64,000 nt of DNA, from positions 2,170,001 through 2,234,000 of the forward strand of contig NC_089459.1 of NCBI RefSeq assembly GCF_026210795.1, in the 5' to 3' direction. Under the pieces are notes generated by a model. That model had not been told where the DNA came from. It searched no databases and saw nothing but the letters and a program-made list of their open reading frames with translations. Source of the DNA: Rhizophagus irregularis (Eukaryota > Glomeromycota > Glomeromycetes > Glomerales > Glomeraceae). The position numbers and the translations under genes are program-made. Shown piece after piece: positions 7,756 to 32,930 of the stretch (position 1 is its first letter; each line of letters begins with the position of its first letter).

Positions 7756-7758
7756 CAC

Positions 7759-8310
7759 ACTGGTCAAAATTAATGCTATCGGGTACATATTGGGTACCTG
7801 ATATGTGTACAATATATGTGATATATATGTATGATATTTAACAATACTACACATATCGGGTACCCGATAAGTGTAGTAGAAATGTAGAAAATCGGTGACA
7901 TATATTGCAAACATCATATATACATCTTACATATATCGGGTAGTTAAATATTGGTCACATATTATAGACTTATTGGGTACCCAATATATTATGATATATA
8001 TCATATATATATTATACAGATATCATACAGATATCAGACAGATAGATATAGAATCACTGGTCAAAATTGTGGTAAACTTGGGTACATATCGGATACCTGA
8101 TATGTGTACAATAAATGTGAAATATGTGTATGATATTTAACAATACTACATATATCAGGTACCTGATATATGTAGTAGAAATATAGAAAATCAGTGACAT
8201 ATATTATAAACATCATATACATATCGGGTAGTCAATTGTCAGGTACCCGGTATATTATAGTAAAATATCGGATAGATATTATACACTTGTACAATATTTA
8301 TTTTATGCAA
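7759..8310. repeat. Two tandem ~297-bp units rich in GGTACC palindromes
   Basis: Two units begin with ACTGGTCAAAATT at 7759 and 8056. Each contains several copies of palindromes of the type ATATCGGGTACCCGATAT and a shared internal block (TATGATATTTAACAATACTA). The same family occurs at 24.4, 26.8-27.3, 29.5 and 47.9-48.2 kb. It is non-coding; the short ORFs here are by-products of the repeat. Confidence 0.8.
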
Positions 8311-10245
8311 TAATATAAATACTAATAAATCCATAATTTAAATTCAATTATAATATTAATTTATTTAATAGTACTAAAAGTTTTATTATTTTTAATTAAT
8401 AATAAAAAATTACAAAAAAATAAAATTACAAAAAAGTATATAAAAATTATTCTAGCCATATAAATAATTAGAATTATGTATATCTGTTATCTACAAATAA
8501 TGTGTTCGGTTATTTGCTGCTTATTTTTATCTTTTTAATATTTAAAAGAAAGAAATAGAAATAGTAAAGTATATTAGTAATAATAAAGATATTAGTATAA
8601 ATATTGTTAAACGAATTTGTAAAAGAAAAGGAATGATATTAGAAATGTTAATAAAAGAAAAGAAACATAAAAAATGGTTAGTAATAGAAAATGTTAGTAT
8701 ATTTAGTAGTAAAATATATTAGTAAAAACAAACATTAGTAGGTTAAAAAAAAAGAAAAGAAGTATTAAAAATATTAATAATTTAAATAAAAATTAGTAAA
8801 AAATATACCTTTATATTTATTTCACCTTTTTTTGAAGTTTGCTATTAAATATATTAATTTATTTTTTTAATAAAATAAAAAAATAAATATTTAAATTACC
8901 TTGATATGCGTTACTTCCATATTCTTCTAAAAATACATGATTAGATTTTCTTTTTCTTAAAATTACTATATATAAACCAAATTAAACTTTGATTAAATTT
9001 TTCTAAAAGAATGTTTAGATTACCTTGACATCTTTTGATTTAGATTTTTTTTTTCTTGAATTCGCAGATATAGAATTACCATCTTTATGTATAGTATCAA
9101 AAAATGTCCGCTCTTGATGTGGAAGATACTTAGGAACCACCTCGTCTCCCAATTAATGGACACCTTAAGTCAGAGGAGGCTGGCCTATCAGGTACAAGTA
9201 CCCTACAACTTCATCCCTAAGTAGTCAAAAATCTTGGGTGGTTCCAGGACCACAGCGTACTACATGATTAGTCTTTGGACATGTTGGGATTTGATAAGTG
9301 AGAGAAAAAATAACTCCAGCGCCAGCATTTGTAAAGAATAATAAAATAATATTTTTAAATTAGTTCTTTCTTTAAATTTTTGAAAAAATTTTGTTTCTTA
9401 AAATCATAATATTGTAAAAAAATGCTGGTTGCTACAACTGACGGACAACGACAAATTGTCAGGCTACCCCCGGACAAAGTAATTGGAAGGCAGAAAATGT
9501 CATAAAATATCCAGCCCTATTTCATAACATTTTCCTCCAGGCTAAAGCAAATATTACAAAAGAAATTGTAAATATATTTAACAAGCAATAGATACATGGC
9601 CGTTGAAAAATATATTTACACTTCATATTGTAATACCACAGTCTAACAAAGAAAGACAAGAAATTGCAAATATATTTAACAAGCAATAGATACATGGCCG
9701 TTGAAAAATATATTCACACTTATACCACAAAAAAAGACTCAAACCACAACATATTGTAAAGAAAATATGAAAAATACGTGTATATCCTATTTTCATACCT
9801 TGCTTAATAGCTCTACTATTATTTAAAAGCAGCTTTTCTCTTTTTTGTATGTGGGTAGTTGCGTACATTTTTTCTTTTCTTTTATTCTCTTCTTTTGTAT
9901 GTGAATGGTAGGTACATTTCGTGAATAGATATGTCTTACTATGTTGAATATATAAACTAAAGTGGTAAAGTATTGTTAATATTGTAAAAGATAATTAAAG
10001 TATACTTGAATAAAAGAGAAAAGAAGTGACAAACAAAAATACTGTAAAGAAAAGTATAGTATTTTTAATAAGAAAGAAAAGTGTATCTTTGAAAATAAAC
10101 AAAAAAAATCACGCATTAGTAAACACAAAATTTATCTATTTTTAGATATCATATGCATATAATCAAAATGATCTTAATTGGTTTATATTATTACATTATG
10201 CATAAAGATCAATGTGATTTTATTGGTTAATTTTAACCTTACAAT
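7759..10245 (+). repeat. Left copy of a 2.2-2.5 kb repeat (inverted at 46.0-48.2 kb)
   Basis: The whole block recurs in reverse orientation at 46037-48209. Matching landmarks are the GGTACC palindromes at the outer end, a TAGATAACAGATAT-type segment, the segment around 9090-9330 (GTCCGCTCTTGATGTGGAAG), the segment TGTCATAAAATATCCAGCCC near 9500, and an internally duplicated ~99-bp unit at about 9563-9720 (CAAGCAATAGATACATGGCC twice) that is also doubled in the right copy. No ORF is conserved between the copies, so it is a non-coding or non-autonomous repeat. TGGCCTATCAGG (9181) and GGTTCCAGGACC (9240) loosely resemble Pol III A and B boxes. Confidence 0.8.
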
Positions 10246-10489
10246 AAAACTAAAAAATATTTAACTGATCATTACACATACACATATTTTTATTTATCAA
10301 TTTATTTGAAACATGTTAATAATATCTAAATAAAAAATTCTATAAATAAAAAATATAGAATTAATATTTTTGTTATAGCAATAATTGTAATTATATATTT
10401 TTGCTATTCATCGATTGTAAAACAAAGCAATTATATTTAAGAGGTATTTTTCTTTAAAAAAAATGTAATATTTTAAGTCATATTCCTTA

Positions 10490-10915
10490 ATTATATTGCA
10501 ATTATACCTATATTAGTATATCGGTATATGAATATCAGTATATTAAATATCGCTATGTCAACTGAAGACAATACGAATTTCATGTGTAGTTAATTTTATA
10601 AGTTTGTTATCAATCATTTGTCTAATTGTTCGATACTATTCTAAAATGGCGTAAATTAAAATCGAATTAAGTTCCAGTATAATGATATATTTGACCAGTT
10701 ATATCAAATGAAAGAATTCATATGTGCTGCATGTGATGGGATGTACATGTTGACTAATTAGACTAACTAATTTTAGTTTCAGGTTTAAACTATTAAGAAA
10801 TGTTTCAGTCAACTATGTTTCACGCTTTTTATCGTTTGTATAATTTATTGTAAAATACGTATTCAATCCAGAATTAATCTATAAATTAAATTTTCTATTT
10901 AACAATTAAAATAAT
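10490..10915 (-). repeat. Relic of a CACTA 3' end, direct repeat of 18.49-18.95 kb
   Basis: This segment matches 18490-18945 in the same orientation (shared strings include TCAATCATTTGTCTAATTGT and GGGATGTACATGTTGACTAA). At 18.9 kb the repeat runs into the last codons of the CACTA transposase. Here too the complement of AAATTTTCTATTTAA encodes the terminal NRKFNL-stop remnant, but the rest of the transposase is missing. It is a solo 3' fragment of the same family. The 18640-18727 interval is absent from this copy. Confidence 0.72.
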
Positions 10916-11402
10916 GCAAAAGTAATAATAAAAAAAGCAATAAAGTGAAATTTCAATTCTTTATCTAAAATATGAATAAATTTAATTATTCGCCAATCAA
11001 CCCTTCTATAATTCTTTAATATTCTTTAATAAGTACAGCTAAATTAAATGAATCATAATTTTAATAATAAAAATTTAGAATAAAAAAAAAATAAATAAAT
11101 AAAAATTAAATTAAAAAAGTTTATAAAATAATAAAATATAATGATTAAGTCGCATGGGAGGAAATAATCGTCCCCAAGAACATAAAATGATTACTCCTAT
11201 TACTTTAGACTTAATCAAAAATTCTTTTTAGACTGTTCTTTTATTTTGTGACTAAGTAAATTACTTTATCAAATTTCAATTCAGGAGTCAAAGTACCTAC
11301 CATGAATTACTTGAAAAATAATTCAGAAATTTACCCTATCAAACATAAACAGCAAAACAATCTTCAAAGAAAATTTCGTATTTCTAATTTTATTTATGAT
11401 TT
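10916..11402. other. AT-rich 3' flank of the oxygenase gene
   Basis: A 91-codon plus-strand ORF at 11302-11577 overlaps the last exons of the minus-strand oxygenase gene and looks like a shadow. Nothing else is supported. Confidence 0.45.
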
Positions 11403-13387
11403 CTATTCCAAAAGATCTTCATGTCTTAAACCTCTTCGTCCTTTTATCAAATCTAAAATAATTTACAAATTAGATATTTATTTATTTAAAAAAAAAACAA
11501 ACAATAAAAATATATATTTACCATCTTTGTATCTTCTTTTATCTGTTGAATTTTCTGATGATTCCTCCTCAATTTGAAATTGTTGTGCTTTTTTAAGTAA
11601 AATTCGTTTTGGATTATGACCTTGAGAATTATAAAGATCTTGTATTTTAATGATTGTATCATTATCATTATTTTTATGAAAATCCTCAAATTTTTTAGAT
11701 AAAAAATTCGCATGCACAAAATAAACTATACTGAATCTTATCCCTCTAATAATCGGAAGGTTGCCATGTAATAGCAAATAAGAAGGAAATGCAACAATTT
11801 GTCCTGGTTTTAATTTTACCAGGATTTGAAGTTGAGGAAAACATAATTCGCCTCCCTCAAAATCTCCCAAAGCTACCAAAAAACAAAGTCCATTTGGATC
11901 ATCATTACTATCCCAATGGTAATTACTGATTACGTTAAAATTAATAGCTATTGTGGGAAAAATTCCAAAAGTTCTCGGTACAAATGGTCCTATTGTTAAC
12001 TTGCTTAGTTTTGTATAATAATGTTCATAATATTTGTTAACAAATCTGTTTACACTATTTGATATTGGTTGTAGTGCAAAAAGTAGATCGTTAACACAAT
12101 TCTGATGATCAATATTATGAGAGCTGGCAGTATCAGAAGTAGTATATGGAAGATCACCATAACTAATGAAAGCTCCAAATCGTTCAGCAAGATTTTTCCA
12201 AAAACTTCTACTTCGATGGATTGGATTGTCCAACATATGAAAATAATAACTATTTATGGCTTTGGTTGCTTCAATGACAGCATTAAAATCATCAAGTCCA
12301 TCCAGATGAACCAAAGTTTTACCACAACCATCAACAATACATTCAGAATTTGTTACATAACGAAAGTTCTTAATATTATTATCTTGTGCTGATACAATCA
12401 TTTTTTTTTATTTATAGTTGATTTTTTTTTCTCAATTTCTAAAATTTCTTTGGATATTTCCAAAACTTTAGAATTTCGAATTTCAGCAGCATGTGAAAGT
12501 CTCTTCCATTGTGATTTAAGATGTTGATGTACATCACTTTTACTAATTGGCTTTTTTAATTCCAACCATTGACCAAATTTAATCCACATATCATTATTAT
12601 TGTTCATTAATTGATCATTAGTTGATTCAGTAATACTTTTAGCAAGATTATAAAATTCTAAAGGAATTTCAGGAATGTCATTATTATTTTTAGATTGTCT
12701 TGATTCCCTTATTAAGCATTCAATTAATAAATCCATTACTGAAATATCTTTCATAATTGAAATTGTTGTTACATTAGAAGATATTCGGCAAAAAGCGCAA
12801 AGCGGAACACTTGACCATTCATTTTTCATATATCGAACTATATCTGAGGTACTTAAATCTCTGGAACCTCCTTGAGTTCGATGCTTAAATTATACAATAT
12901 AGATTATTTTATTTATATTTTATATTTTATGACATATCAAAGATAATATATACCTGCAAAGGATTAAATATTATGTTTGTTTTTACTTCAACAGGCGAGG
13001 AGGAACTAACAGATGAGGAACTAACATCATCTTGAGTTTGTTGCTTAATTATAAATTAAAAAAAAAATTTGTCTCGTTAAATTACTTATTTATATAAGTA
13101 TTAGATCTAGTAGTATATAAATGAATCATCATCCTGATTCATTTATATATTAAACTAGATCAGTAAATCATCCAGTTTATAAATGATAATATCATATACC
13201 TCTATAAGATCAAAAGCTATTGTTTGAGAAGAAGAATTCGTATCTTGAACTTGCTGTTTAATTATAAAATTCTGATATTAGATTATAGTGGAATTGTTTA
13301 TATTTTTAGAAGTAAAATGAAAAGTACCATAGATGTCTTTTGTAATCGTTTCTTTGCATTGTATTTGGTATGTCTTGAACGTTTCAT
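11403..13387 (-). CDS. Six-exon 2OG-Fe(II) dioxygenase, possibly TET/JBP-like
   Basis: Proposed exons on the minus strand: 13387-13328, 13253-13200, 13043-12954, 12883-~12402, 12401-11522 and 11452-11403. All four N-terminal junctions are GT-AG and phase 0; the last intron (69 nt) is phase 1. The catalytic part (307-codon frame from 12401) has the Fe(II) motif HWD (H162, D164), a GGELCFPQL strand (183-191), the distal histidine in LLHGN (H212) and the 2-oxoglutarate arginine in GIRFS (R222). This order is typical of 2OG-Fe(II) oxygenases. The GGEL/LLHG layout recalls the fungal TET/JBP-like group that oxidises 5-methylcytosine in DNA, but subfamily and substrate are inference. The N-terminus is basic (MKRSRHTKYNAKKR), then S/T-rich. 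The frame shifts by -1 at an A9 run near 12401-12409; this could be a mutation, an assembly error or recoding. Confidence 0.72.
12398..12409 (-). other. A9 run with ATGA overlap: -1 frame change inside the oxygenase gene
   Basis: On the minus strand the N-terminal exon frame ends in KKK-TGA, and the catalytic frame opens at the ATG overlapping that TGA by four bases. Nine consecutive A residues precede the TG. Moving from the first frame into the second needs a -1 shift, which an A-rich slippery run could give; a one-base indel would look the same. Confidence 0.6.
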
Positions 13388-14279
13388 CTTTTTCTTAAAA
13401 GAAGCTAAGTAAGTCTAAAGTAAAGGATAAATCCAAGGAACAAAATCAAGATAACAAACCCAAAGAATAAAATCAAAAGACAAACTAAAGAATAAAATCA
13501 AGGTAAAATAAAATAAAGTTAATAAGGAACAGAACAAAGAAGTTAAAATAAATGAAAATAATAAATTTACATGTTTTAAAATCAACTGGAAGACTGAAAT
13601 ATCATAAAAAAAAGAAACATTAAAAGAATAAAATGCAAGAAATAGAAGGATTGGAGCGAAAAAAACTTACTGTGTGAACGTTCTTAATAAAAATAAATAA
13701 ATATCACCACCGGTCTAATAATGAGGTACTAGTCATACTCAATATGTCACTGATTTGCAATATTGATATCTAGGCTTGGCGCAGATCGGTTACATAAGAA
13801 CACAGTATGAGATTATTCTAACCATATATCCTAATTTACATATTTATAAGTATACTTCATTTTCAAATGCCGTAATATTACGGCACAATGCCGAATTGCG
13901 TATTGACGCAACGTAATTCATTTATACTGACATAATTACATCAGGAAGTCACGGGAAAAATGTTCATCAAATGTACATCGGCCACTTGATGTACATCATA
14001 AAGAAATGCTGACCTGCAATGTACTACCGATGTCACAATATTTGATGTTCATCGCCAATTCAAAATGTTCATTACCCATACATTACGATGTACATTATTT
14101 TAAAGATAATAAACATCATATCAATATTTTACTATTATTTATATATGTTAATATAACGATGCTAAATATTATTGAATAACAAATTATTTTATTAAATTAC
14201 ACTATATTAAACAATCTATATACATTAAATTACACTATAACAATCTATATACTAAAGTCTATTAAATTAACTCAATACT
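13388..14279. other. Intergenic stretch with palindromes
   Basis: No ORF is supported. An 18-bp palindrome TGCCGTAATATTACGGCA lies near 13868. The segment 13950-14110 holds several GATGTACAT / ATGTTCAT words in both orientations, such as ATGTACATCGGCCACTTGAT, which suggests a decayed MITE or a cluster of protein-binding sites. The 13390-13680 part, next to the start of the oxygenase gene, is its likely promoter region. Confidence 0.4.
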
Positions 14280-15624
14280 CTGGGACAAAGAAAAGTTTCG
14301 AAGTTATTCTTCGAAACTTTACCAATCTTCGTGTCCAGGAAATACAACCTATAATAAAAAGATAAAAGTATTAATAAAAAAAAATTAATTTAATTAAAAA
14401 GTTTCGAAGTGAAACTTCGAAACTTACCAATCCGTTAAGATTCGTATATACTTACGAATCTTGGTTCCTTCTTTCGGTTCTTTGGAAACCCACCCAAATC
14501 TATGAAAAAAAGAAAAGGAACGGTTAGTAACCGTTCATAATATTAAAAAAAAGAAAAAAAAAACCAAGATTCGGAATACTTACGAATCTTGGTTCCATTT
14601 GTCGGATGTCTACCCGAACCTATAAAAGAAAGAAAGGAACGGTTAGTAAACCGTTCCATAAAATAAAAAAATAAATAAATAAACCAAGATAAGAATCTTG
14701 GTTCTAACAAAATCACCTTCCTCTATCCCCCTTTCTACGCGTCCTACAAAAAAAAATAATTAAAGAAACGTTAGTTCATTTCTCATATTTAAAATAAAAA
14801 AATCCCCCCTTTTCCCGTTCTTACTACCTTAAAGTAGTCCATCGTAGTATTCAAGCCAGCGCCTTTCTAGTACGCGTCCTACAAAAAAAAATGATGAAAA
14901 GAAACGTTAGTTCGTTTCTTAAGTTTAAAATAACAAAAAAACCCCTTTTCCCATTTCTCACTACCTTAAAGTCCAGTTTCGTTTCAAGCTGGATCAAGAT
15001 ATATTAGGTTCATCCTCGTCGTCATATGCTTCTGTGCCTTACTGGAGTCACCATTACCAAACACTTCACCGATCCCATCATGAGTTATAACGTCTAATTA
15101 TAAGTACAACCTACAATAAAAAAAAATTAATTTTAAAAAAAATTTTTAAAAAAAAAGTTTCGAAGAGAAACTTCGAAACTTACTTGAAAAGCTGATCCAA
15201 AAAATCTTAAAGACAATTCCTACAAAATAGACAAAAGAAGAAACGGTTAGTTTCTTCAAAACAAAATAAAAAAAAATTTCAAGAAATGTTTCGAAAGTAA
15301 ACTAAACTTTCAAAACTTACCGATCATATCATCCTGAGTTCAGAAAGTTCAATACCTGCAAAAAAAAAGAAAAAAAATCAAAATAAAATTAAAATAATAA
15401 AAAATCAAAAATAAATAAATTTAAAAAGTTTTGAAATTTTCAAAACTTACCAATTCATTGCCGACCTACAAAAGAAGGCCCCAACGTCGAGAAATCCAAC
15501 CGAAGTCCAAGAAGTTAATATCCGAAGTCCAAAGCCGAAGGACCGATATCTACAAAAAATAAGAGAAAATTTTAAAAAAAACTTTTTTAAAAAAAACGCA
15601 CACACGTCACCCTACTTACATACC
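14280..15624 (-). ncRNA. Array of ~10 hairpin-bearing introns separated by mini-exons
   Basis: Read on the minus strand, the region is a run of intron-like units. Proposed introns: 15623-15550, 15450-15357, 15321-15221, 15184-15111, 14964-14879, 14827-14744, 14716-14620, 14583-14500, 14455-14349 and 14322-14280 (43-107 nt). Most start GTAAG or GTAGT and end in a T-run plus TAG or CAG. Several donors open straight into a perfect hairpin, e.g. AAGTTTCGAAG...CTTCGAAACTT. In others the branch point (T)ACTAAC lies in the loop of a second hairpin (GGTTACTAACC, GAAACGAACTAACGTTTC). Spacers are 26-146 nt; 15110-14965 has stops in all three frames, so a coding transcript is unlikely. It could be a spliced non-coding RNA, an introner-like array or a decayed gene. 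Transcription is not proven. Confidence 0.6.
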
Positions 15625-15977
15625 TGTCTGTCGTCTAATTCCAAAAAGTAATAAAATTTTGAAAGGTAGGTTTTTTATTTCTTTAATTTTTTATTTTTAT
15701 TTTTCTAAATGTATTAAGAAACATTTCTAACGAAATGTTAACACTTTTTTTAAAAAAAAATATACTTTACGAGATCTTTTTTTTTGGACTTTTTTTTTTT
15801 TATCGAATTGAAAAAAAAAGATCGATCGGCAAACTGATTACGTGATACCGATCAAAATCTTTTTTTTTTTATGACGACATTTTTATATTTTTTTTATAAT
15901 GATGTCTTATATATTTTTTTATAACGATGTTTTTTATATTTTTTTATAACTAAACTAAAGAGTTACTTATAGTACTT
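15625..15977. other. Homopolymer-rich stretch upstream of the intron array
   Basis: Long T runs alternate with A runs, including a ~35-bp near-repeat (TTTTTATAACGATGTTTTTT type) at 15868-15950. It would be the promoter region if the minus-strand array is transcribed. No gene seen. Confidence 0.4.
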
Positions 15978-16263
15978 ATATACTTTAGACATACTTCAAA
16001 GAAACTATTCGAAACTCTATCCTTCGACCATGCAAACAATGCAATAAACACAGCTACAAACACTTACATAGGCTTATGCCTGAAACATAATAACATACTC
16101 ACGGAATTAAAAAAACAAACACAAAATTACAACATCTTTCTCAAACACACAACTGGAATGACCTTCAATCTAAAATCACGTATTGACGCCTCTCCACTAT
16201 TCAAATCGGATTCAATCAATCCAACATATAACAATAATCACCCTTTTATTTACTAATTCACCA
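15978..16263 (+). pseudogene. C-rich open frame fragment of unknown identity
   Basis: An open frame without a clear start runs through about 15960-16263 and ends at TAA. It contains stretches such as NTYIGLCLKHNNILTELKKQ and TGMTFNLKSRIDASPLF. Codons often end in C or A, unlike the surrounding A/T tracts, so I take it as a fragment of a former coding sequence, possibly from a transposon. I do not recognise the family. Confidence 0.3.
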
Positions 16264-18480
16264 CCTGATACCTACCGAATTGACTTGCCTCCTATATAAT
16301 TACATAGGTCGCAAAAGAGTACGTGATTTAGCGTTCAATGAATTTATAACACATTAAAATAATAAATAAAAAATTTTTTTTTTTTAATAAATCTATTTTT
16401 TTCGGTTTTTTTTTAAACCGAAATTTAAAAAAAAATTTTTTATTCTGGTATAGAAAACAGCTACTGATTTCTTCCTATTTGGTATTGGTTTTGTACTTTG
16501 TAAAAATGTCGAATAAAGTTAATTACTATGGAGTAGTGTCTAAATGATCATCGAAACACTTACCCAGTATATTCTTTTTTGGTTAGACAAATTAACTTCG
16601 AAAAATTTATATTCTTCTATTTATTATAGATTTAGATTATATATAAAATTATGATTTTTTTTGATTTATAAATTTATTCTTAATCCTCGATTCGATTATA
16701 GATTATAGAGTACTAGAGCTTATTCTCTTTTTTATCGAATTTGTACCTTATCAGTTATAAATAATTTTTATCCAAAAAAAAAAAAATAATAGATATTGAT
16801 AAACATTACATCATGAGTTTAGTATATACTAAAATTTTTTATTTTTTTTTAGATTTTGTTACAAAATACTTAGTTATAGGGTTTAATCTTTTTTTTGGAT
16901 TAGGCTCTAAGTATTTTTATATAATTATGTAATTTTTACTAATAAATAATTAATAAAAATGCGTTACTATTTAAAAATAAAAAAAAAAAAGAAATTTGTA
17001 GCCGTAATTATTATGGCATATTACGTCAGGTATAATGCCTTTTTCCTATTCTGTAATCTGTAAGATGTTTTACAAAATACCTTTTATGAATTTTATTAAA
17101 GGATTCTATATTATTTTTATTTTTATATGTTCCCATAAAGTTCTCGAGTTAAGATCTTCAAAACACTTGCAACATATATTCTTTTTTAGTTGGATCTGCC
17201 TGGCCAAAATAGGAAAAAATATGTAATCGATTCAGATCCAGATTCCTATTCCTTTTCGATTTCTATTTGGATTGAATCTTAAATTATAGCCCCATGGGAA
17301 GATGGGTCTTATAAATAAAAAAAAATTTTTTTTAAAAAAAATTCATTTTTATGTTTGTTATACAAGTAAAAAAAATTTGGATTATCGTTTTCAAACAATA
17401 TGCAGCTCTATTTCGATTATTTAAACCGGTTATAAATTGCAAAAAGAAAAAAAATTTTCTTTCTTGCAATCAACGGGTTTATTCCTTGTAAATTATAAGG
17501 GCCTGAACCGTTTTAAGAAAGAATCAAATTCCCCATTTTTCATACTCCTTTTTCATTAAAAAAAATAAACGTCTCTGTAAATTATTAGAAAAAATATTTT
17601 TTTTTTGTTTATAAAGATGTAAGATTTAACATGTATTTTTTTTAAGATGATGATTTGGTAATTTCATATTTTTCTATAAGGAAGTATGAGATATAGGGAT
17701 TTTGTAAAAAAACTTATGAAAAATGTGTGAGATTTCTTTTTCACTGTCATCTTCTTGTGATTATAGCGAAGCCACTTTTTTTTCATGAGAAAAAATTCGT
17801 ATTGCTTCACATTCCTCCTTTTTTTTCTTTCAAAATAAACAAATCGTAATATTTAGAATTTGGAAGCTTTAAAAAATAAAGCTATAAAACTCACAACATT
17901 AGATTATTCATTTTTTATTACATTCCACTAAAACTAAAAACAAAAACTCAATTATCTGTTACATCCATGAGTCTACCAAACATTTAACGCAAAAATACAT
18001 CATAAAGGAAGTTATGGTTGTAATAAGATTAAATGATGCTGACCTGACGGGGTGGTATACCTTAAAGTAACTCAAATTGAAGATTTTGAAGAAGGAGATG
18101 TGGTGTTCTTAAGAACGAAATTCGTCACCAATGAAAAGGATATGATGAATAGTATATCAAATCGGGATAGAAGATGAATTAGGAAAGGGATTACAACTAA
18201 GAAGTCAGGACGAGCTGATAAATAAAAACGGGATTTCAAACCACGGCGTGGACTAATTTGAACAACCGCGTATCTGGAACGTTGAAAGACGAATAATATT
18301 TTGATGTGACGAATAGTTGGTAATGGTGGGAAAATAGAATTGGCAGGTATTGTAGGTAAAGAAAAAGATGATGTGTAGTTTGTATCAATGTAAATAGGAA
18401 ACGTGTTGCGAAAACTCAAGCCACTAGATATCGATAATTCTCAGCACTAATAAAGTCATCGTTTAAAAAAATATAGATAC
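16264..18480. other. AT-rich region with decayed coding traces
   Basis: No intact gene. The tails of 16550-16620 and 17150-17220 are similar (CACTTACCCAGTATATTCTTTT versus CACTTGCAACATATATTCTTTT, each broken by mismatches), suggesting an old duplication. On the plus strand about 18040-18400 can be read, with several TGA/TAA stops, as a frame containing VYLKVTQIEDFEEGDVVFL and KFVTNEKDMMNS; it looks like a decayed gene, family unknown. The 115-codon minus-strand ORF at 18072-18419 is probably its shadow. Confidence 0.35.
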
Positions 18481-18489
18481 TTCTTTATT

Positions 18490-18919
18490 CGACCACCTAT
18501 ATTGATATATCAGTATATTGAATATCAGTATATTAAATATCGGTAATATCGGTATATCAATCATTTGTCTAATTGTTTGATACTATTCTAAAACGGTGTA
18601 AATTAAGATCGAATTAAGTTCGAATTAAGTTCCATTTACGGTGTAGATTAATATCAAATTAAAAGATCTAATTATCTAATTATGTATAACTCAACATATA
18701 TACTTATCCACTATAAGAAAAGTAATATCAGTAATTTCAGTATAATGATATATTTGACATACCTGTTATAGTGCTGTATGTGAGGGATGTACATGTTGAC
18801 TAATAAGACTAACTATTTTTAGTTTCAAGTTAACTATTAAGGAATGTTTCAGTCAATTATGTTTCATCACGTTTTATTGTTTGTATAATTGTAAAAAACA
18901 TTCAATCCGGAATTAATAT
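18490..18919 (-). repeat. 3' flank of CACTA copy 1
   Basis: This non-coding segment directly follows the stop of the copy 1 transposase and matches the relic at 10.5-10.9 kb, so it belongs to the element rather than to host DNA. The exact terminus is not established. CACTATAAGAAAA at 18708 resembles CACTA terminal motifs, but homology to the relic continues beyond it. Confidence 0.6.
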
Positions 18920-21900
18920 TTATAAATTAAATTTTCTATTTAATGGCATTATTGATATATAATTTTGTTTACCGACTCGAATGTTTCTAATTTTTGTGGC
19001 TCTACATAATATTCTATGGACCGCTATTAGTGAATCACAACCTTCCTCATAGTATTCACCCTTCCATAATTCAGTGTTTGATAATTCTGGTTCTATAAAC
19101 CTATGTTTAAACCGAATATCAGAGGAAGGTGCATTCTTATACCATTTGACATATGCCAAAAGATGAGTTCTTGACCACTTCGAGGTAACCTAAGTGTATG
19201 TTCAAAGTAATATTGAACCTCTCCTGGATATATGTCAATTGTTTCATCACTAAATGCTTTCCATTTCGCAAGAATAGTTGAATTTGTTTCATGACGACCT
19301 GCAATCACAGATCCAAATATTTCTGAGCCAATTTGTAATCTTGCATGCTGGTTAATTTGTAAGTCCATAAATCCTAATATTTCATCATGATCTTTCTCAT
19401 ACAACATTTCATACCATTCACATAGAAACATTCGCAATTCTGAAGGAATAACAACTCTTAAATATGATGGTTTAAGCAGTTGACCTGGTATTGCTTCAGT
19501 ACCATATATTTTAGATGTGCTATGTCTCATGGATAGGAAATATTGTAACTCTTCTCTTTCTGCTGTAAGTGCCAAACTACCTACATCTTTTTTTTTTACA
19601 AGAAAGCAAAGAGATTCATCTAAAAGGCCGGATGTCCATTTACATGTTAGATGATAATCAACTAAAGTATTTTTAAGGACAATTTTCATCAATTCAGGTT
19701 CTATTTTTCGGTTACTGTTGGATATGATCCTAAAGATAATAGATTATATTTTTTTTTAAAAAAAAAAGATATCAGAAGACAACAAAATCATCAAGTATCC
19801 TACCTATATATCCGTTAAGTCTCTCAAATGGAAAAAGCCAAAAACTATATATAGGACCATAATCACGACAGCAATCAGGAATGTGAAGCGAAAGATGTAT
19901 ATTACTTGTTATGAATTCTGGTCCATATGTGTTTTCTATAAGGTAAGCCATATCTTTTAATCTCTCTTGTGCTTCTTTTAAATCATCTTCAGTAATAATT
20001 CTTGTTACCAAAAGATTACATGCTCGAACAAAATATCCTAAAATCTTTCTGTCATTATCATCTAACATATCCCACAAGATAGCTGTAGAATAAATCATAA
20101 TAAAGGTTTTCCATTGATCAGCAGTTAAGTTTGAAAATCCATCACTTCCAATCGCAATTTTTGGAGGAATACAACCAATATCAGAAGGTAATTTAACATG
20201 ATCCATTCTATTTTGTGCCACTCGAAGTTGTTCCATACTTAATTTTCCCTGGCTCACAAAAATAGATTTAATTATCCATTTTGCTACACCAAGAAAAAGG
20301 CAATGCATTGGATCTACTACAGCAAAACGTATGGGATCCATATATGGAAGACGAAGCAATTCAGACCAACGTATACCATATTCTTTGAAATGATCTTCTC
20401 TAGAATTTTTTGAGTTGCATTGCAACCATTCATATGCATGTTTTCTATGTGATTCTGCGTTACTCAACTCATAAGTATGAACTCCTCCATAGTGATTTTT
20501 TCTATACTCTTCACTATAAACACTACGTTTCTCACACCTATGGCATTTCATTAATGCAGATCCATGTCCAAACAACTTTCGTGTGGCTGGTATATCTGAT
20601 GATCCAACAATTAATGCAACTTTAATGTCTAGACCATCAGGATAATGGTAAGTTTTTGGAACTCTCCAGCCCCTCCAGAGCTCTAAAAGCTCGTCTACAA
20701 TAGGGGCTAAATAATGATTAATACGATCTAATCCCACTTCTTTTGGACCTGGCAAAAAACCCAAATATATAATATTTTCAGGTTTATTCCTTTCTGATCT
20801 TGGTAAGTTACAAATAGATGCATATATAGCACCTGTACTGTGTTGTGTATATGTAAATGGCTGAAACCAGTCGAAGGTTAACAAGAAGACCTAAATTGGT
20901 TGTGGCAGTTTCTGATGTAAAAAATGGACTACCATCAAAAGAAAAGGTTTTCCACACATTACCATCATAAATATCTGAATAGATATTAACTCTTTCTCTT
21001 TGAACTCCTGATAATTTTAGCATATTTTCAAAACCAGGTCGTTGGTATAACATACTTAATTGTTGACGAATACTTGGTTTAGGGTAAATCATACGAGGTT
21101 CAGCAATTATTCCACTTTCTTTTTTTTTAAGAATAGAAAGTGGATTATTGCATTTATTACGACGACTGGGTACTGGATTATTTGGGAATTCTTCATGTAG
21201 GCAATTTGCAATAGCAGTTTTTCCTCCTTCTTTATATTCAACAATATTTTTAACATTATATAATTTATGACAATTGTTACATACAGTTAACTGCATTTTT
21301 GGTTGAAAGATATTTAACATTTTTTTTGCAAGATATAAGGATGCTGGAAAATTTTTAAATTGTGATTTATTTAAACGAGTAAGTACAATATGTAAGAATT
21401 TTATTAATGCTTCAAGTGCCACATCAGGTAATCGAAATCTTTGTTGAAATTTAAATAACCATATTATAATCTCAGTATTAATAGAATCACTTAAGCTTTC
21501 CATTACAAATACTTCATCATTATCAAATTCAGGAGATGCAAAAAATTCTTCTATATCATCCTTCTCCTCCTCATCATTTCCATCATTATCATCATCATCA
21601 TCTTCATTATAATCACCTTCATCTTCACCATCATTATTCTCAGCACCATTATTTTCATCACCATTATCCTCATCATTATCACCATCATCCTCATCATCAT
21701 CATTTTCTTCTTCTTCTTCATTGTAATATATATATTCATCATTTTCTTCTTCTTCTTCATTATAATATATATATTCATCATTATCCTTATTTTCATCAGG
21801 TGCTGGAATATGAAAATAAGAAGGATTTGGCAATGATGGTGATGATGAAAATAATGTATGTATGTTTTCATTATTATTTGATTGGGATGAATCAGTTTCT

Positions 21901-22376
21901 TCATTGAAAAGATCAAAGACATTATTTTGTTGGAAAGAATTAGGATTAGGATTTAATGCCCTTTTTCGCTTTTTTGTAGGGTTTGCATCTTGAATAATGA
22001 TGGATTTTCTTTGTTTTCTCGCTATAATAGTATCTGCCTGATTTTTTCTAGCATTCTCTGAGTTCCATAAACTTTTCTCCTTTGTGTGATTTTCTTGAGT
22101 GCGAAAATCAACCTTTGTGCCATTACAACGAATACAAAGACATGGATACAGGTACCTTTTTTTGGATTTTATTAAATCGACCATCTTTGTTTTTTTAGAT
22201 TTTATTGAATTATCCATTTTAGATTTTATTAAATAGGATACAGAGGCAGATGATTCAACTTTACTTTTTTTTGATTTTATTAAATCAGACACAGAGATTT
22301 CAATTTTAGTTTTTTTGGGTTTTACTAAATCAGACACAGAGGTAGAGGTAGAGGTTTTACTTTTTTTATTATTCAT
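18920..22376 (-). pseudogene. CACTA/Plavaka-like (Tnp2) transposase, copy 1, frameshifted
   Basis: Exon 1 runs 22376-19804 and exon 2 19729-18920, split by a 74-nt GT-AG intron that copy 2 also has. The N-terminus repeats VSDLIKSKK-type basic motifs, then a cysteine cluster (YLYPCLCIRCNGTKVDFRTQ) and a long D/E/N-rich acidic stretch. The catalytic part shows the Tnp2-like triad candidates GSSDIPATRKLFGHGS (D), VDPMHCLFLG (D) and LFPFERLNGYIG (E), with CHRCEKR between. The length (about 1,120 residues over two exons) is normal for CMC-superfamily transposases. One extra base near 20875 breaks the frame between LGLLVNL and FDWFQPF, and an indel near 19165 breaks it before AYVKWYK, so it is inactive as read. 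It faces away from the accessory gene at 22.9 kb, head to head. Confidence 0.88.
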
Positions 22377-22895
22377 TTTATTAAAATATATTTATTAAAA
22401 TGTAAGTGTCAAGAAAGTTAAAGTTACAATTACTTAAATGAAGCTTATTTTTCAAAATCAGGGTTCGCGTTCAACACCTTTTGAAATCCAGTTACACATT
22501 CAATTCTTTTAGGGTCACGTTTTTCTTTCAAAATCAGATTCGCGTTTAATTCTTTTTTAGATTCGAATTAGTTCGCGTTTAATTCTTTTTTTAGATTAGA
22601 ATCAGTTCGCGTTTAATTCTTTTTTAGATTAGAATTAGTTCACGTTTAATTCTTTTTTTAGATTAGAATCAGTTCGCGTTTAATTCTTTTTTAGATTAGA
22701 ATTAGTTCGCGTTTAATTCTTTTTTTAGATTAGAATCAGTTCGCGTTTAATTCTTATTCACACATCCTATCATAACATTTGCGTATTCGTGTTTTTCGTG
22801 TCTTTATGATTCTGAAATCAATATAAATTTACACAAACCCTTTTCTCCTCTTTTCAATCAAAATTTTATATTTCAACTAAAATATATAAGTAATA
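22377..22895. promoter_or_regulatory. Shared divergent promoter of CACTA copy 1
   Basis: This 519-bp gap separates the divergent starts of the transposase (minus) and the accessory gene (plus). In its centre is a tandem array (22538-22755). In CACTA elements, protein-binding repeats near promoters and ends regulate expression; this role is inferred here by analogy only. Confidence 0.5.
22538..22755. repeat. 33/34-bp alternating tandem repeat
   Basis: About six to seven copies of AGTTCGCGTTTAATTCTTTT followed by TTAGATTAGAATY. Units alternate between AATT and AATC ends and between six and seven internal T residues, giving a 67-bp dimeric period. It contains CpG-bearing TTCGCG cores in an otherwise CpG-poor setting. 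Confidence 0.85.
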
Positions 22896-24170
22896 ATGGA
22901 TAGTGATCGGGAATCTAATTCTTCTTCTTCTTCCACTTCCTCTTCCTCTTCTACTTCCTCTTCCTCTTCCTCTTCCTCTTTATCTTCGTCTTCATCATCA
23001 TATAAAATGATTAAAGCAAGTATTATTTATTATAATTTATTTATTATTTCTGGTTTTTTTTATTTTATTTATGTTTGCCTATTATTTTATAGCAAGAAGT
23101 GTTTATATGGGTCGACTCAGAACTAAAAGATATCTATAAAATAGACGAAAAACTAACTTGGGTCGAACAAAAGAAGAATATAGTTACGAAGCTACTGCCA
23201 CCTCTATATAAGATTGTGAATAAAAAATACAGCATTACGAATAGAAAATTATTAAAAATGTTGTATGGACGGTGGCGTTCTAGACATCGTACAAGTAATA
23301 TCAAAAATCAAGGAGATGAAAGAGTTAAACAAAACAAGAGAAGATCAAGTAAAAATTCAAGAATGCAAGAGGTAAGTAAATATTTAATTAATATGAAATA
23401 GAATTTTAGTTAACTTTACTGCATTTTATAATTACATTATTAGAAGAAGAAAAGAAGGGCGCACGCAACAAATTACTTAATAGAGAATAAAAATAAATAT
23501 ATTCTCAGATATCCGGAGGAGGATCTAGTAAAGATTCTTAAGGATTCAGGTTACCACTCAGAAGAGTGGGAAGAAACTGATCCTGAGGAAGAATGGCCCA
23601 TTACGCAATCTGCAGTAGTTGAAGATGATGAAATTATTGAGGAAGCTATAAAACAAAAGTCATCATCAATATACATTCATAATAAATGGTGGCGTTCTCC
23701 TGCAGTATGTATAATTTTTATTTTATTTGTTTTATTTATTAAAAATATTAATAATAATTTATTTATTTAAGCTTTTGAGATTATTACACGACCGAATTGA
23801 TCCAACAGTCGAATTATTAAAAAAGAAACCATTAACTTTAAAACGTAAAAGAGCTCAATCAAGTCAATCAAGATACAATACATCTAACGTGCCACCCATA
23901 GGTGTACCAAGTTGGTGCCTTAATCAGGATGCACTTGAACAATTTAACTATTCAAATGTCAATATTCCAGTATATGACTATAATACTGATGATCAGAATA
24001 ATAGTGATAATGATATTGAAGATGAAAATAATAATGAAGAAGAAATTCAAAACAGAACAAATTCTAGTAAAAAAAAGAAAAAAAAAACCAAAAAAAGGTC
24101 AAATCAAAAAAAAATAAGAAACATAAATCAAAATAATTCTTTTTTTTATGTAATACTTGTTATAATCTAG
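22896..24170 (+). CDS. CACTA accessory protein (TnpA-like position), copy 1
   Basis: Four exons: 22896-23019, 23097-23371, 23444-23704 and 23772-24170; introns are GT-AG and short (67-77 nt). The protein is about 352 residues. It has a serine-rich N-terminus, then a conserved block with VFIWVDSELKD and LLKMLYGRWRSRHR (a helical, basic, possibly DNA-binding module). Further on are an acidic WEETDPEEEW segment, NKWWRSPA, LLHDRIDPTVELL, PSWCLNQDALEQFN, NIPVYDYNTDD and a lysine-rich tail. Copy 2 carries the same gene, same exon pattern (exon 2 is 275 nt in both) and same divergent placement, so it belongs to the transposon. By analogy with the two-gene En/Spm layout it may bind element ends; I recognise no named domain. 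No internal stop was seen, so this copy may be intact. Confidence 0.75.
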
Positions 24171-24404
24171 TCTTAAATAAGTTTACTTTATTGGATTATA
24201 TAATAAATTGAATGATTAAACTTTAGATCGAACAGATCTAATCTGATTTGATCTGCATAAAAGCTAACATTTAGCAAAACAATGTATTTTGTTATATTTT
24301 ATTTATTATAAGCTTATAAAAAATATCGAAATAGATTAATTGGAACAAAATTTTAATTAACAAACATGTAATTTCAAAATATTATTTAAATTAAAAAATC
24401 CTAC
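24171..24404. other. 3' flank of the accessory gene
   Basis: AT-rich and non-coding. The first ~50 bases weakly match the corresponding flank of copy 2 (TAAATARGTTTA), so the transposon probably ends within or soon after this interval. Confidence 0.35.
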
Positions 24405-24770
24405 ACATATCGGGTATTATATAACATATTGGTAACCAGTGTTGGAAATTCAGATTTTAAATCATGTGCAGAATGCGCACATTATTTGAAATTTTTATGT
24501 GCGCAAATTCATATGCAATGTGCGGAAATGTGTAAAATATACAAGAATGTGTCAGATATGCAAATTTTTGTGTGCGCAAAGCGCATGCAAAAATTTTTGG
24601 TCATGTGCGGAGTTTTTAAAATTTGTGCGCGCGCACACTCCGCACATTGCTGTTGGTAACTAATAATTTAGATATCGGATACCTGGTAACCAATTAGATA
24701 CATATCGGGTATATATATATGCATATTAATAACATATTAGGTATCCGATTTGATTTCTAATGTGCAAGAT
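24405..24770. repeat. GGTACC-palindrome repeat split by a hAT MITE
   Basis: The left part (24405-24436) and right part (24661-24770) contain ACACATATCGGGTAT, TTTAGATATCGGATACCTG and ATTAGGTATCCGATTTGATT, matching the element at 27.06-27.28 kb. The MITE 24437-24652 interrupts it. Confidence 0.75.
24437..24652. mobile_element. 216-bp hAT-type MITE with perfect 8-bp target duplication
   Basis: It starts CAGTGTTGG and ends ACATTGCTG. Perfect duplications TTGGTAAC lie at 24429-24436 and 24653-24660, the hAT hallmark. The subterminal parts are rich in TGTGCG/GCGCAC words, e.g. ATGTGCAGAATGCGCAC and its near inverse. The 76-codon ORF across it begins in the flank and is not a gene. Confidence 0.88.
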
Positions 24771-25003
24771 TATATATAAATACTGTATTTTCATGTGGTA
24801 CTGTCTGATATTCATTTTTGGTTACTGGAAAGCATTATTTATTGATTTATATAGCTAAGTTTATCATGCTCTTAATCTTTAGATTATCAATTATAACGTC
24901 ATGATTTTCTAAAAAATATTATAAAATAATGGTTTATTCCCCAATTTAACATTTTAACATCAATTTTTTTTTTTTTCATAAGAGTTTTTTTTAAAAAGAT
25001 AAA

Positions 25004-25796
25004 ATGTACGCGTTTTTTATTTTTTTCCTACATTTTTTTATTTCTATTAAAATGTACAAAAAAAACCATGAATCTAATATTGAAAAACCTGAAAAAAGTA
25101 AGACGTTTCGTCACGAAGATGAAAAAATTGAAAAAACTGATAAAAATAAGATATTGTTGTTAGAAGCTCAAAAGATCGCAAGTCAAGTTTATAAAGATGG
25201 AATAAAGGAAATTTATAAACTTACTGTTGACGCAACTTAAAAAGAATGATTCGTAAGTAAAATAATTAATATAAAAATATAAATAAAAAGAAATTCCTAA
25301 ATATAATTTTAAATATATTTTTTAGTTATGAAACAGATAAATATATTTCTTCGTTATCTCATATTAGCAATATTAGTAAGAAATTTTTAACAATTCACTT
25401 TTGAGAAAAAATGTCCTATCAATTTAGTTATTAATATAAAAATTTCCATTATATTTATTATTAGTAACAATGGCTGCCAAGCACCAACCATACCAACAAC
25501 CACAACAATTACAACAACAACCACTACAACCGTTACACCAGTCTAGTATTTATTAATTTAATACGAAATTAAAGTTTATAAATTATCTAATGACTTATTA
25601 TATAAAAATTTTTAAAATTACAAAAACAGGTGATTCATCAAAAATTTTTTGTTTATATTGCTATGGCCCACATTGGCTAGTAAATTGCCACCAAATACCT
25701 CCAAAATATAGGGGAAGTTGTATAAAGTGTTGGAAAAGTACCAGGCACCAAGCAAAGGATTGTAAATCTAATAGACAGAAAGAGCCTTGGCACTAG
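25004..25796 (+). CDS. Small spliced zinc-knuckle protein, apparent 1-nt frameshift
   Basis: Proposed exons: 25004 (or 25052)-25252, 25326-25375, 25465-25545 and 25630-25796, with GT-AG introns of 73-89 nt. The last exon has two zinc knuckles: CLYCYGPHWLVNC and CIKCWKSTRHQAKDC (CCHC type, spacing slightly off the retroviral consensus). Exon 3 has a proline/glutamine-rich run starting MAAKHQPYQQPQQ. The first exon is basic and acidic in alternation and ends KLTVDAT-stop; the frame that joins it to KKNDSYETDKY needs one base more or less near 25235. A shorter start at 25470 (MAAKHQ) gives an intact 80-residue protein over two exons. CCHC knuckles bind nucleic acid; the precise role is unknown. 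Confidence 0.6.
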
Positions 25797-26428
25797 AGCT
25801 TTTTTTTTATAATTTTTGTAAGTAAAATTTTTAAAATTATTATTACTAATTTTTTGAATCTAATTATTTAACTTTTTTCAGATCAGATCGGCTGAATTTT
25901 TTTTTTATGTTTAAGTGGGGCAGCCAATTTCTTTTTTTTTTGGGTCAGCAAAAAATTTTTTTTTCTTTAGTCCAATTGTAATTGGAACTTGATTCGTGGG
26001 GTCGAACAGTATTCTGATTGTGGTCAGATGTAAATTTTTTTTTTTAGTCCAATTGTAATTGGACTTGGTTCGAGTGGGGTCGAACAGCATTCTGATTGTG
26101 GTCAGATGTTCTTTTCGTAATATATTATAATATTCAATAATGTTTTTTTTATATTTTTTTTATCATATGAATAATTTTTAATATAATTTTTTTTTAAAAA
26201 AAAAAATAATAAAGTTTTATAAAAATTCCATATATTAGGAATTATTTTGTAATCACAATACATATTTTATTTTTAAAGGAACTTTTATATATAAAACCTA
26301 CTAAAACACGATCTTTGGCCATGTCACATAAGAAATTGATGTATTCAATATTAATGTAACATTTTTTTTAAGCAATGTACTTATAAGAATCAACATTTAT
26401 ATATATATATAGTATCAGTAAAAAAAGA
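25797..26428. other. 3' region of the zinc-knuckle gene with a 76-bp duplication
   Basis: T-rich and non-coding. A ~76-bp tandem duplication lies at about 25967-26110: TTTAGTCCAATTGTAATTGG followed by GGGGTCGAACAG and TGGTCAGATG occurs twice. CCAATTGTAATTGG is palindromic. It may be 3' UTR of the gene just upstream. Confidence 0.5.
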
Positions 26429-26730
26429 AAGAAATGTTAGTACGTTTCTTTAATATTAAAAAGAAACCCCCTCCTCCTCTATTTCTTACATTTCAAGTCT
26501 AAGTTCATTCAAAAAGTCTGAAAACCTAAAAAAAAGAAAGAAAGAAATGTTAGTACGTTTCTTTAATATTAAAAGGAAATCTCCCCCTCTATTCCTTACT
26601 ATGTTTCTTTAAAATTAACAAAAAGTTCTTCTCCCCTTCTCTATTTCTTACTACATTCCAATCCAGATTCATTCAAAATCCAGCGAAAAAAGAAGTCCCG
26701 TTATTCTACAAACAAGAGATCCAGCATTCT
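26429..26730 (-). other. Second cluster of hairpin introns of the 14-15 kb family
   Basis: On the minus strand the order is acceptor-TAG, spacer 26728-26655, intron-like 26654-26526, a 36-nt spacer 26525-26490, then an intron-like unit with donor GTAAGAAATAGAGG and no clear acceptor. Both units carry the hairpin AAGAAACGTACTAACATTTCTT (split here at the loop: AAGAAA..TACTAAC..TTTCTT), with the branch-point word TACTAAC in the loop. They also carry the GTAGTAAGAA..GAGAAGGGG donor side seen at 14827 and 14964. No through-going ORF. Confidence 0.55.
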
Positions 26731-26816
26731 AAAAAAAAGAATAAATATATATTTAAACGATCTTAAAAATTATTAATGATCAGTCAGATGACTGTCGATT
26801 AGATTTTAACCAAATA

Positions 26817-27290
26817 GAAAAATTTGTGTCACACATAGTACCTCCGATTATTAGAATTTCATACAAATATCGGTACCCGATATCTATTAGAAATATATTG
26901 GTGACTAATAGTTTAGATATCAGGGTCTCAATTTTTAGGAGTATTTTTAATGTGATAAATCGGGTACCTGATATGTAAAAATGCCCGATATATAACTGAT
27001 TAGTCACTGATATATAGGTACCCGATATGTACCTGATAGAATCGATTTTGACCAGTGATACACATATCGGATACCTGATATATATTATATAACATACTGG
27101 TAACTAATAGTTTAGATATCGGATACCTGATAATTTAACTATATTTGAAGTTTCACATTAAAAATCAAATCGGGTACCCGATATATTGTTAATATGTATA
27201 TATACCCGATATGTACCTAATTGGTTACCGATATATAGGTACCCGATATGTGTATGATAGATTCTTTTTTGACCTGTGACAGGCTGTTAC
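26817..27290. repeat. Two adjoining GGTACC-palindrome elements
   Basis: The first (about 26817-27054) ends in GATTTTGACCAGTG. The second (27055-27277) ends in TTTTTTGACCTGTG and is followed by ACAGGCTGTTACAA. Each has several ATATCGGGTACCCGATAT-type palindromes. The second is the inverted counterpart of 29458-29690. Non-coding. Confidence 0.78.
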
Positions 27291-31442: not shown

Positions 31443-32618
31443 TTATTTTTTTGATTTTTTATTTTTTGATTTAGATTTATTTTTCTTTTTTTTCCTTTTG
31501 TTGTTATTTTTGTTATTTACGACGTTATTATCAACATCATCATCGGCACCATTGTTGTCTTGAATAATGCTTTCATCAGTATCATAATCATAAACCGGGA
31601 TATTTTTGGTTAAACAGTTGAATTTTTCAAGTGCTTCTCTATTCAAACACCAGCTTGGTGCGCCGGCAGGTGGCACAGTAGCTGTTTCTGTTTTGTCTAG
31701 AACTCTTTTACATTTTAAGTTTGGTGGTTTTTTCCTTAATAACTCTACCGTTGGATCAATACGATCATGTAATAAACGTTAAAGCTTAAATAAAGAAATT
31801 AAACTATAAATTAGTGTTTATACTTTGATAAAAAATAATAAAATATACATACAGCAGGAGATCTCCACCATCTTTCATAAATATATATCGAATTTTTTTT
31901 TGTGACTACTTCTTCTTCATCATTTTCATCATCTTCATCATCTTCGTCGGTTTCCTCCTATTCTTCGGAATGGTAGCCTGAATCTTTTAAAATTTGAACT
32001 AGATCCTTTTCAGGATATCGGCAAATGTACTTATCTTTGTTTTGTATTAGGTAATTGGCCGCGTTTGTTCTTCTTTTTTTTTCTAACAATGTTAATTATA
32101 AAGCACAATATAATTAATTTAAAAAAAAACTAAATTTAATAGCTTCTGTTAATTAAATAATTTACATCCTGCATCCTTGAATTCTTCATTGCTCTTCTTT
32201 TGTTACGTTTTATTTGGGCTTCCCCTTGCTTTCTAATATTACTAACGCGATGGCGAGATCGCCAATGTCCATATAACATCTTTAATAAATCACTATTTGA
32301 GACTTTATATTTTTTATTTACAAGTTTGTAAAGTGGTGGAAGCAACTTGGTGACTATGTTATCTTTTTGCTCAGCCCATGTGAGCTCATAGTTAATACTG
32401 TATACGTCTTTTAGCTCGGAGTCGCTCCAAATAAACACTTCTTTCTGTAAAATAATAGATAAATGTAAATAGGATAAAAGCAGAAATAATATATAAAATA
32501 ATCAAATACTTGCTTTTATCGTGTTATAAGAACTTTTAGAAAAGGAAGAAGAAGAAGAGGAGAAGGAGGATGATGATGATGATGATTCATCACTAGATGA
32601 TACATTATCACTATTCAT
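31443..32618 (-). pseudogene. CACTA accessory protein, copy 2, disrupted
   Basis: Exons on the minus strand: 32618-32510, 32440-32166 (275 nt, as in copy 1), 32082-31853 and 31784-31443. It conserves the Ser-rich start, VFIWSDSELKD, LLKMLYGHWRSRHR, ERWWRSPA, LLHDRIDPTVELL, PSWCLNREALEKFN and NIPVYDYDTDE of copy 1. It is broken by TAG at 31960-31958 (TGG in copy 1), by a TAA at the second codon of exon 4, and by a frame slip in the A9 run at the start of exon 3. It is divergent from the transposase at 32931 with a 312-bp gap, the same head-to-head plan as copy 1. Confidence 0.8.
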
Positions 32619-32930
32619 TGTTACGAAGTATAAAATCTTTTTGTTATTTTGTAAAATAAAAAAATCCCGTATAAAGTAGAGATTTCAGAACGCGAGAAAG
32701 TTAATTGTGTGCAAATTTATAATAATTTCGGAGATTTCAGGATGCAGATCAAGGCTCAAAGGTAGCAACGTGTTTGCGCAATTCTCACCAGGTAAAAGTA
32801 ACGCGCTCATAAAATTCTTGTGCAATTCTTTTGTATGATAAGGATTATTAAAAGCTCGTTTCTGAACGTCTTGATTACTAACTATTAAAAGTGATAGAAT
32901 AAAAAATATATTTTATACATTTTAATAAAA
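32619..32930. promoter_or_regulatory. Shared divergent promoter of CACTA copy 2
   Basis: This 312-bp gap lies between divergent starts. It lacks the 33/34-bp tandem array of copy 1 but contains scattered AACGCG / TTGCGC words. The regulatory role is inferred from position. Confidence 0.4.

Follow-up and report, generated by a model that had tools for sequence, protein, structure and literature searches.

We analyzed a 64-kb stretch of the Rhizophagus irregularis genome (the window), with the whole assembly of 146,748,485 bases in 32 contigs as the scope of the genome-wide searches. The window contains a tandem array of short intron-like units on the minus strand, which lies within a truncated copy of a small transposon that in turn lies within a much larger one. 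The features referred to below are as follows; the splice sites of the array are predicted and were chosen by hand.

7758..27278, minus strand: CACTA/EnSpm-like element carrying the array, with termini CACTGGTCAAAA and CACAGGTCAAAA and a 3-bp target duplication (aca)
19093..22376, minus strand: ORFs of the CACTA-like transposase gene, with Transposase_21 and DUF4218 in 19772-20884
11478..12401, minus strand: TET/JBP-like ORF (PF12851) of the CACTA-like element, downstream of the array and in the same direction
26400..26760, minus strand: short second array, alpha-like, just inside the right end of the CACTA-like element
13939..15855, minus strand: 5'-truncated copy of the array-bearing PlavakaB-like TIR transposon, with its 3' terminus at 13939
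14349..15624, minus strand: tandem array of nine intron-like units and eight non-coding mini-exons
15624-15550, 15450-15356, 15320-15220, 15183-15111 and 14964-14879, minus strand: predicted intron-like units 1 to 5
14827-14744, 14716-14620, 14583-14500 and 14427-14349, minus strand: predicted intron-like units 6 to 9
14562..14594, minus strand: beta-type donor hairpin, in which the exon end AACCAAGATTC pairs with the intron start around GTAAGT (RNA fold; covariation of the arms)
14636..14657, minus strand: beta-type branch-site hairpin GGAACGGTTTACTAACCGTTCC (sequence; RNA fold)
14518..14536, minus strand: beta-type branch-site hairpin GAACGGTTACTAACCGTTC (sequence; RNA fold)
14899..14920, minus strand: alpha-type branch-site inverted repeat AAGAAACGAACTAACGTTTCTT (sequence; absent from the minimum-energy fold of its intron)
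14763..14784, minus strand: second alpha-type branch-site inverted repeat GAGAAATGAACTAACGTTTCTT (sequence)
15237..15257, minus strand: gamma-type branch-site hairpin GAAGAAACTAACCGTTTCTTC (sequence; RNA fold)
15183, 14427 and 14322, minus strand: donor stems (sequence)

An earlier, sequence-only reading of this region had described about ten consecutive GT-AG units of 43 to 107 nt, alternating with mini-exons of 26 to 146 nt. The array is real, but the complete units that could be placed number nine and span 73 to 101 nt each by their predicted splice sites; for two further donors, at 14455 and 14322 (minus strand), no separate acceptor is evident. Inner exons number eight and measure 27 to 146 nt; the upper limit holds and the shortest exon is one base longer than proposed. 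The units appear consecutive rather than nested. CTAAC serves as the candidate branch word in five of the nine, a TTAAT-like word stands alone in three, and neither is present in the first unit. The exons are non-coding: as had been noted, no reading frame passes through the array. The 146-nt exon is closed by stops in every frame, while the spliced array of 650 nt offers no ATG-initiated ORF longer than 20 aa and no stop-free run longer than 59 aa.

The hairpins proposed for these units are also present. Donors fused to a stem had been placed near 15182, 14425 and 14320, and we find such stems at 15183, 14427 and 14322; branch-site words within stem loops had been placed at 14657 and 14919, and the corresponding stems start at 14657 and 14920. 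The stem at 14562-14594, joining the end of an exon to the start of the following intron, is likewise there and is recovered in the RNA fold. When six stretches of the window were folded as RNA, they were more stable than their dinucleotide shuffles (z from -2.0 to -6.0), and the described hairpins form part of the minimum-energy fold in five of the six; the exception is the alpha unit 14964-14879, which prefers another fold.

Three main unit types, here called alpha, beta and gamma, recur across loci. Alpha units have an exon like GACGCGTACTAGGAGGACGCCGGCTTGAATACTACGAAACCGGACTTTAAG and a branch-site repeat of the form AAGAAACG-AACTAA-CGTTTCTT; beta units have an exon resembling GTTCGGGTGGGCTTCCGAAGAACGGAAAACCAAGATTC, a stem enclosing GTAAGT in which the end of the exon pairs with the first part of the intron, and a branch-site stem GAACGGTT..AACCGTTC; and gamma units have the donor GTAAGTTTCGAAAG.., followed by a stem of their own. 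Allowing up to two mismatches, at least 425 beta-type branch-site hairpins (control, 2) and at least 568 alpha-type ones (control, 0) are present genome-wide, and a search of IMG/VR contigs for the beta hairpin returned no exact match. The earlier proposal that related stems recur and that the units were copied thus stands, as the same unit types are found in tandem here and at many other loci. The window array itself is matched over at least 92% of its length at 96 to 100% identity in eight places, including the window, and in one more at 83%. Locus L033 contains a tandem repeat with a period of 138, 8.7 copies and 91% matches. In locus L054, branch-like words are surrounded by additional stems that differ in sequence from these, for example GGGAACGTTACTAACGTTCCC and ATGGCGTTA..TAACGCCAT; four of its stems were folded, and three were more stable than shuffled sequences (z -3.2, -4.3 and -2.4) with the fourth not (z 0.67).

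We also note that the long beta arrays of L032 and L033 start after a GA-rich run and have a tail that differs from that of the elements with CATCAGG ends described below. Both are broken by an insertion of inverted repeats with AATAGGTTATC repeats, and they perhaps belong to another array-bearing family. In addition, at G000:C8:2947725-2948191, five alpha-type TACTAAC branch hairpins follow one another at intervals of about 110 bases and make up a dense array.

The 3' tail of the window array ends sharply at 13939, and this end is common to all 13 loci fetched; the flank beyond it is shared with the window by one locus (L039) and is different in the others. On the upstream side, similarity to the 5' part of another such element stops near 15855 and no second terminus was found in the window, and we therefore regard the window copy as 5'-truncated. 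A genome search with the 21-base terminus gives 42 matches, against none for its reversed control, and includes seven convergent pairs 2.6 to 4.4 kb apart. The elements have termini CATCAGG..CCTGATG, with CATCAGGAAGTCACGGG inverted at both ends of those that were read. Four elements read whole (L052, L053, L054 and L056) are 2.6 to 3.2 kb long and have the same layout: between the TIRs, a 5' region containing pyrimidine-rich runs is followed by an array built from the same kinds of unit and then by a 3' tail; L054 additionally contains stretches of other sequence. None of the four has a stop-to-stop ORF longer than 113 aa, and the array-bearing elements are apparently non-autonomous.

Twenty two-ended elements were collected in total, of which seven interiors were read whole or in part, six more match the array, and seven were neither read nor among the matches listed; two alpha hairpins lie inside one of these last seven (C4:5109436-5111744). 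The target duplication is 2 bp in 15 of the 20, with a longer match (TTT, TATA, ATAT) in three, 1 bp in one, and none in one. These ends and 2-bp duplications fit PlavakaB transposons, for which CATCA..TGATG ends and target duplications of 2 to 3 bp are reported (PMC12730594). At one further locus (L099 and L100, C30:9500-12650), termini of the array element lie 9.5 kb apart and enclose an ORF that looks by eye like a transposase; it has no Pfam transposase match and does not truly resemble the transposase ORF of the window at 20808-22376, and two identical copies of it are present on C15. This pair may be an autonomous relative or may reflect nesting of another element.

The outer, CACTA-like element is 19.5 kb long. 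Among six copies compared, the left boundary is at 7758 in all six and the right boundary at 27278 in four, with the other two alignments ending earlier. It has CAC..GTG termini and 3-bp target duplications at all five sites checked, and palindromic TATCGGGTACCCGATA-like repeats are present at both of its ends. The transposase gene is of the Tnp2 type, with Pfam matches above cut-off to Transposase_21 (6.3e-09) and DUF4218 (1.7e-06); the two ORFs beside the one with these domains have no Pfam match. The PF12851 match of the TET/JBP-like ORF falls just below its family cut-off (E=4e-08; 33.1 bits against 34.9).

At 15849-16352 the window departs from the other CACTA-like copies, with about 0.5 kb of other sequence where those have about 1.5 kb; by eye, the latter resembles the disrupted remains of a captured gene, parts of which are SANT- and ZZ-like. 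Elsewhere in the window, 31573-38900 (plus strand) is a second CACTA-type transposase region, inverted and about 80% similar, with Transposase_21 in the ORF 35890-37608, and a Tc1-like transposase ORF is located at 2143-2916 (DDE_3, 2.7e-16; HTH_Tnp_Tc3_2, 1.4e-08).

Comparison of the copies bears on how the stems are kept. Within 38 array stretches (36 fetched loci plus two from the window), an exon-intron stem of at least 8 bp is present at 96 of 195 distinct donors, compared with a mean of 12 and a maximum of 19 in 50 shuffles, and a stem of at least 7 bp surrounds 71% of 147 array branch candidates versus 8% of 60 elsewhere in the window, with common descent uncorrected in both counts. We then compared real with shuffled arm partners in units picked by their consensus arms, again with the common descent of units uncorrected. 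The donor stem pairs in 516 of 620 cells versus 478.7 with shuffled partners (maximum 498), the beta branch stem in 278 of 312 versus 262.6 (maximum 273), and the alpha branch stem in 194 of 232 versus 178.4, although in the last case the shuffled maximum (194) equals the real value at least once. Looser unit sets agree (0.725 versus 0.690, maximum 0.712; 0.785 versus 0.716, maximum 0.744; descent likewise uncorrected), and pairings slid out of register are far lower than those of the true arms. The compensatory changes that the sequence-only reading had proposed to look for are therefore seen, in that the arms covary beyond shuffled partners, with the reservation that a shuffle equals the alpha value.

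The donor motif is conserved as well. In 114 distinct beta units picked by their branch hairpin, the six donor positions are 0.90 to 0.98 conserved (mean 0.945), compared with 0.44 to 1.00 (mean 0.76) for exon positions of the same units. When branch hairpins were picked by their arms alone, 153 of 174 contain CTAA (137) or TTAA (16), and 147 of the 174 are followed within 45 nt by T..YAG, which random positions show in 800 of 2280 cases in sense and 515 of 2280 in antisense. The arrays thus present a donor, a branch site, a pyrimidine tract and a YAG in the order of spliceosomal (U2) introns. Among 161 donor hairpins picked in the same manner, 117 start with GT, 90 of them with GTAAG, and 18 with AT, and a fair part of this set is damaged or matches by chance.

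An excess of G-U over A-C changes in the stems would be a sign that they are kept at the RNA level. The ratios are 46:30 and 29:18, and 120:76 and 72:43 in looser unit sets, but 28:47 with the consensus-arm units, which arises partly from badly aligned arm ends, and 43:45 for one alpha pair genome-wide, the second number being raised by copies of the CACTA-like element. A T-rich sense strand alone could favor G-U changes.

Taken as a whole, we consider it probable that the array is cargo of small, apparently non-autonomous PlavakaB-like TIR transposons, in which exon-intron units appear to have multiplied by tandem duplication, and that one array-bearing copy landed in the CACTA/EnSpm-like element, with which it would now be copied along. 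Judging by the order and conservation of their splice signals, the arrays are likely to be transcribed and spliced. Sense transcription could start within the pyrimidine-rich 5' part, were a promoter located there, or reach the array by read-through from a neighbor; the short introns would be taken out singly by the spliceosome, and the mini-exons joined into a non-coding RNA. More tentatively, and with rather less confidence, we suggest that the stems serve local intron definition: each would confine a donor or a branch site to the small intron that it belongs to, making mis-splicing among the near-identical neighbors of a tandem array less frequent. A search of the genome for processed (spliced) copies gave two one-mismatch matches for the beta junction, which we take as chance, and none for the alpha junction. 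This lack of processed copies counts against the explanation we favor, as do the divided G-U against A-C counts, the damage to many units that the arm-picked donor hairpins illustrate, and the four of nine window units with a TTAAT-like branch word or none. Transposition of a non-autonomous element, moreover, requires no transcript, and seven of the 20 two-ended elements have neither a read interior nor a listed array match.

The chief rival, which we regard as somewhat unlikely yet worth serious weight, is a neutral expansion. In this view a non-autonomous derivative captured the spliced leader of an ancient transposon gene, which slippage and unequal exchange then multiplied; template switching, correcting the palindromes at the DNA level, would together with concerted evolution hold the stems near-perfect, and there would be no present RNA function. 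The plain recent tandem growth seen in the L033 repeat, the lack of a clear G-U preference and the many damaged donors agree with it. Conservation of the splice words in the loops (CTAA or TTAA in 153/174; GTAAGT positions at 0.90-0.98) argues against it, because palindrome correction would not keep loop words.

It is unlikely, if conceivable, that the element uses splicing as camouflage or as a switch, softening or gating its effect on the transcripts that it interrupts. An RNA crossing the insertion would then be cut into short non-coding pieces and rejoined, with border hairpins gating the splice sites. The main prediction of this proposal, sense-oriented insertion in genes, finds weak support. 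Six of 20 joined insertion sites are open over their full length in some frame, five of them reading in the array's own direction (C5b, C10, C16b, C17 and C31b) and one in the opposite direction (C29b), compared with a baseline in which random 234-base pieces of the window reach at least 70 aa in 23% of cases. Only C16b among the five sense-open sites has a Pfam match above family cut-off (Sel1, 3.4e-22). The left flank of a further site, C5a, looks kinase-like by eye and has no Pfam match, and at C29a the frame is lost across the insertion join.

We think it very unlikely that the stems are DNA-level sites, for example for binding of transposase or in replication, with incidental splice-like words. 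Stems could act as DNA, CACTA-type elements have end-proximal repeats, and the outer element has its palindromic TATCGGGTACCCGATA-like repeats at both ends, but the arrays fill the interiors of elements, run one way, and keep the order of donor, branch word, T-run and YAG. A role in small-RNA silencing, in which poorly spliced array transcripts become siRNA templates, has only a slim chance of being correct; inefficiently spliced transposon RNA is reported as an siRNA template in Cryptococcus (PMC5851062), the setting here is a transposon, and stems that include the donor could slow splicing, but the stems are short (about 7 to 14 bp) and Rfam finds no match in window positions 10000-24000.

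A family of introners, with single units spreading as introns into many genes, is slimmer still as a prospect, and we reject it. The sequence-only reading had suggested that the units are introner-like, and the approximately one thousand hairpin units genome-wide and the recurrence of related stems would agree with this. However, of the 20 isolated-looking hits that we fetched (those standing alone among the 100 listed of 164 exact matches), 17 proved by eye to be arrays of at least three units within 701 bases, which disfavors introners, and the other three are remnants of one or two units without a demonstrated host exon; single units also have no visible terminal repeat or target duplication. 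The mobile unit is the entire array, carried in a TIR transposon, and not the single intron. This result also comes close to the ordinary MITE that had been named as an outcome refuting the earlier reading, in that the units sit in a MITE-like element, yet that element is no ordinary MITE.

A multi-exon protein-coding gene has next to no chance and is rejected, since the window exons are closed and 10 of the 13 arrays show no excess of open frame (P 0.09 or more), even though spliced L033, L030 and L032 have longer frames than with shuffled exons (P 0.01, 0.04 and 0.04) and 89 of 175 exon-like stretches have a length divisible by three, a count that is inflated by repeated related units.

We recognized no description of an array-bearing element of this kind in the titles and opening lines of abstracts in the open-licence literature, and the proliferation of introns within a transposon that these elements may display is of a form that we have not found described. 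If the arrays are spliced, a DNA transposon would be the site of multiplication of introns that are not introners, and the elements would constitute a natural experiment on the way in which RNA structure near splice sites guides the choice among near-identical tandem introns. This question of splice choice would be testable, given that a single genome offers about a thousand of the hairpin units, in several sequence types with paired changes. The arrays are also a caution for annotation of this genome, where both gene and repeat calls may misinterpret them.

Among known systems, PlavakaB of the CMCT clade (PMC12730594) is closest to the inner element, sharing its terminal sequences, its short target duplications and a fungal host. 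Some PlavakaB families carry TET/JBP genes; the accounts of them in the text consulted contain no intron arrays, and the elements read here lack any ORF longer than 113 aa and are PlavakaB-like in their ends and target duplications. The outer element resembles the EnSpm/CACTA transposons with a TET/JBP gene described in the same source in its CAC..GTG termini, 3-bp duplications, Transposase_21 domain and TET/JBP-like ORF; three other fungal lineages are named there for these, and the text never mentions Rhizophagus; the outer element differs from them in carrying along a nested array-bearing element. In soybean, a large CACTA element is spliced from a MYB gene (PMC4219821), which likewise is a CACTA element affected by splicing, but the part of that report at hand mentions no small structured intron array. 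Introners (PMC9860276; PMC4457414) are also numerous related introns linked to transposons with TIRs and TSDs, and fungal ones are reported with inverted repeats or stable structures (PMC8469720); they sit singly in many genes, whereas here the introns are in tandem within non-coding cargo and the array moves whole. The internally symmetrical stwintrons of the Hypoxylaceae (PMC8469720) are likewise proliferating, related fungal introns with inverted repeats, but they are nested, lie in coding genes without target duplications, and are reported often to leave the donor G and branch A unpaired. Finally, the nonconventional introns of euglenids are reported to have a similarly stable RNA structure around the intron ends; these lack GT-AG borders and complementarity to U1, whereas the units described here have GTAAGT, CTAAC and YAG.
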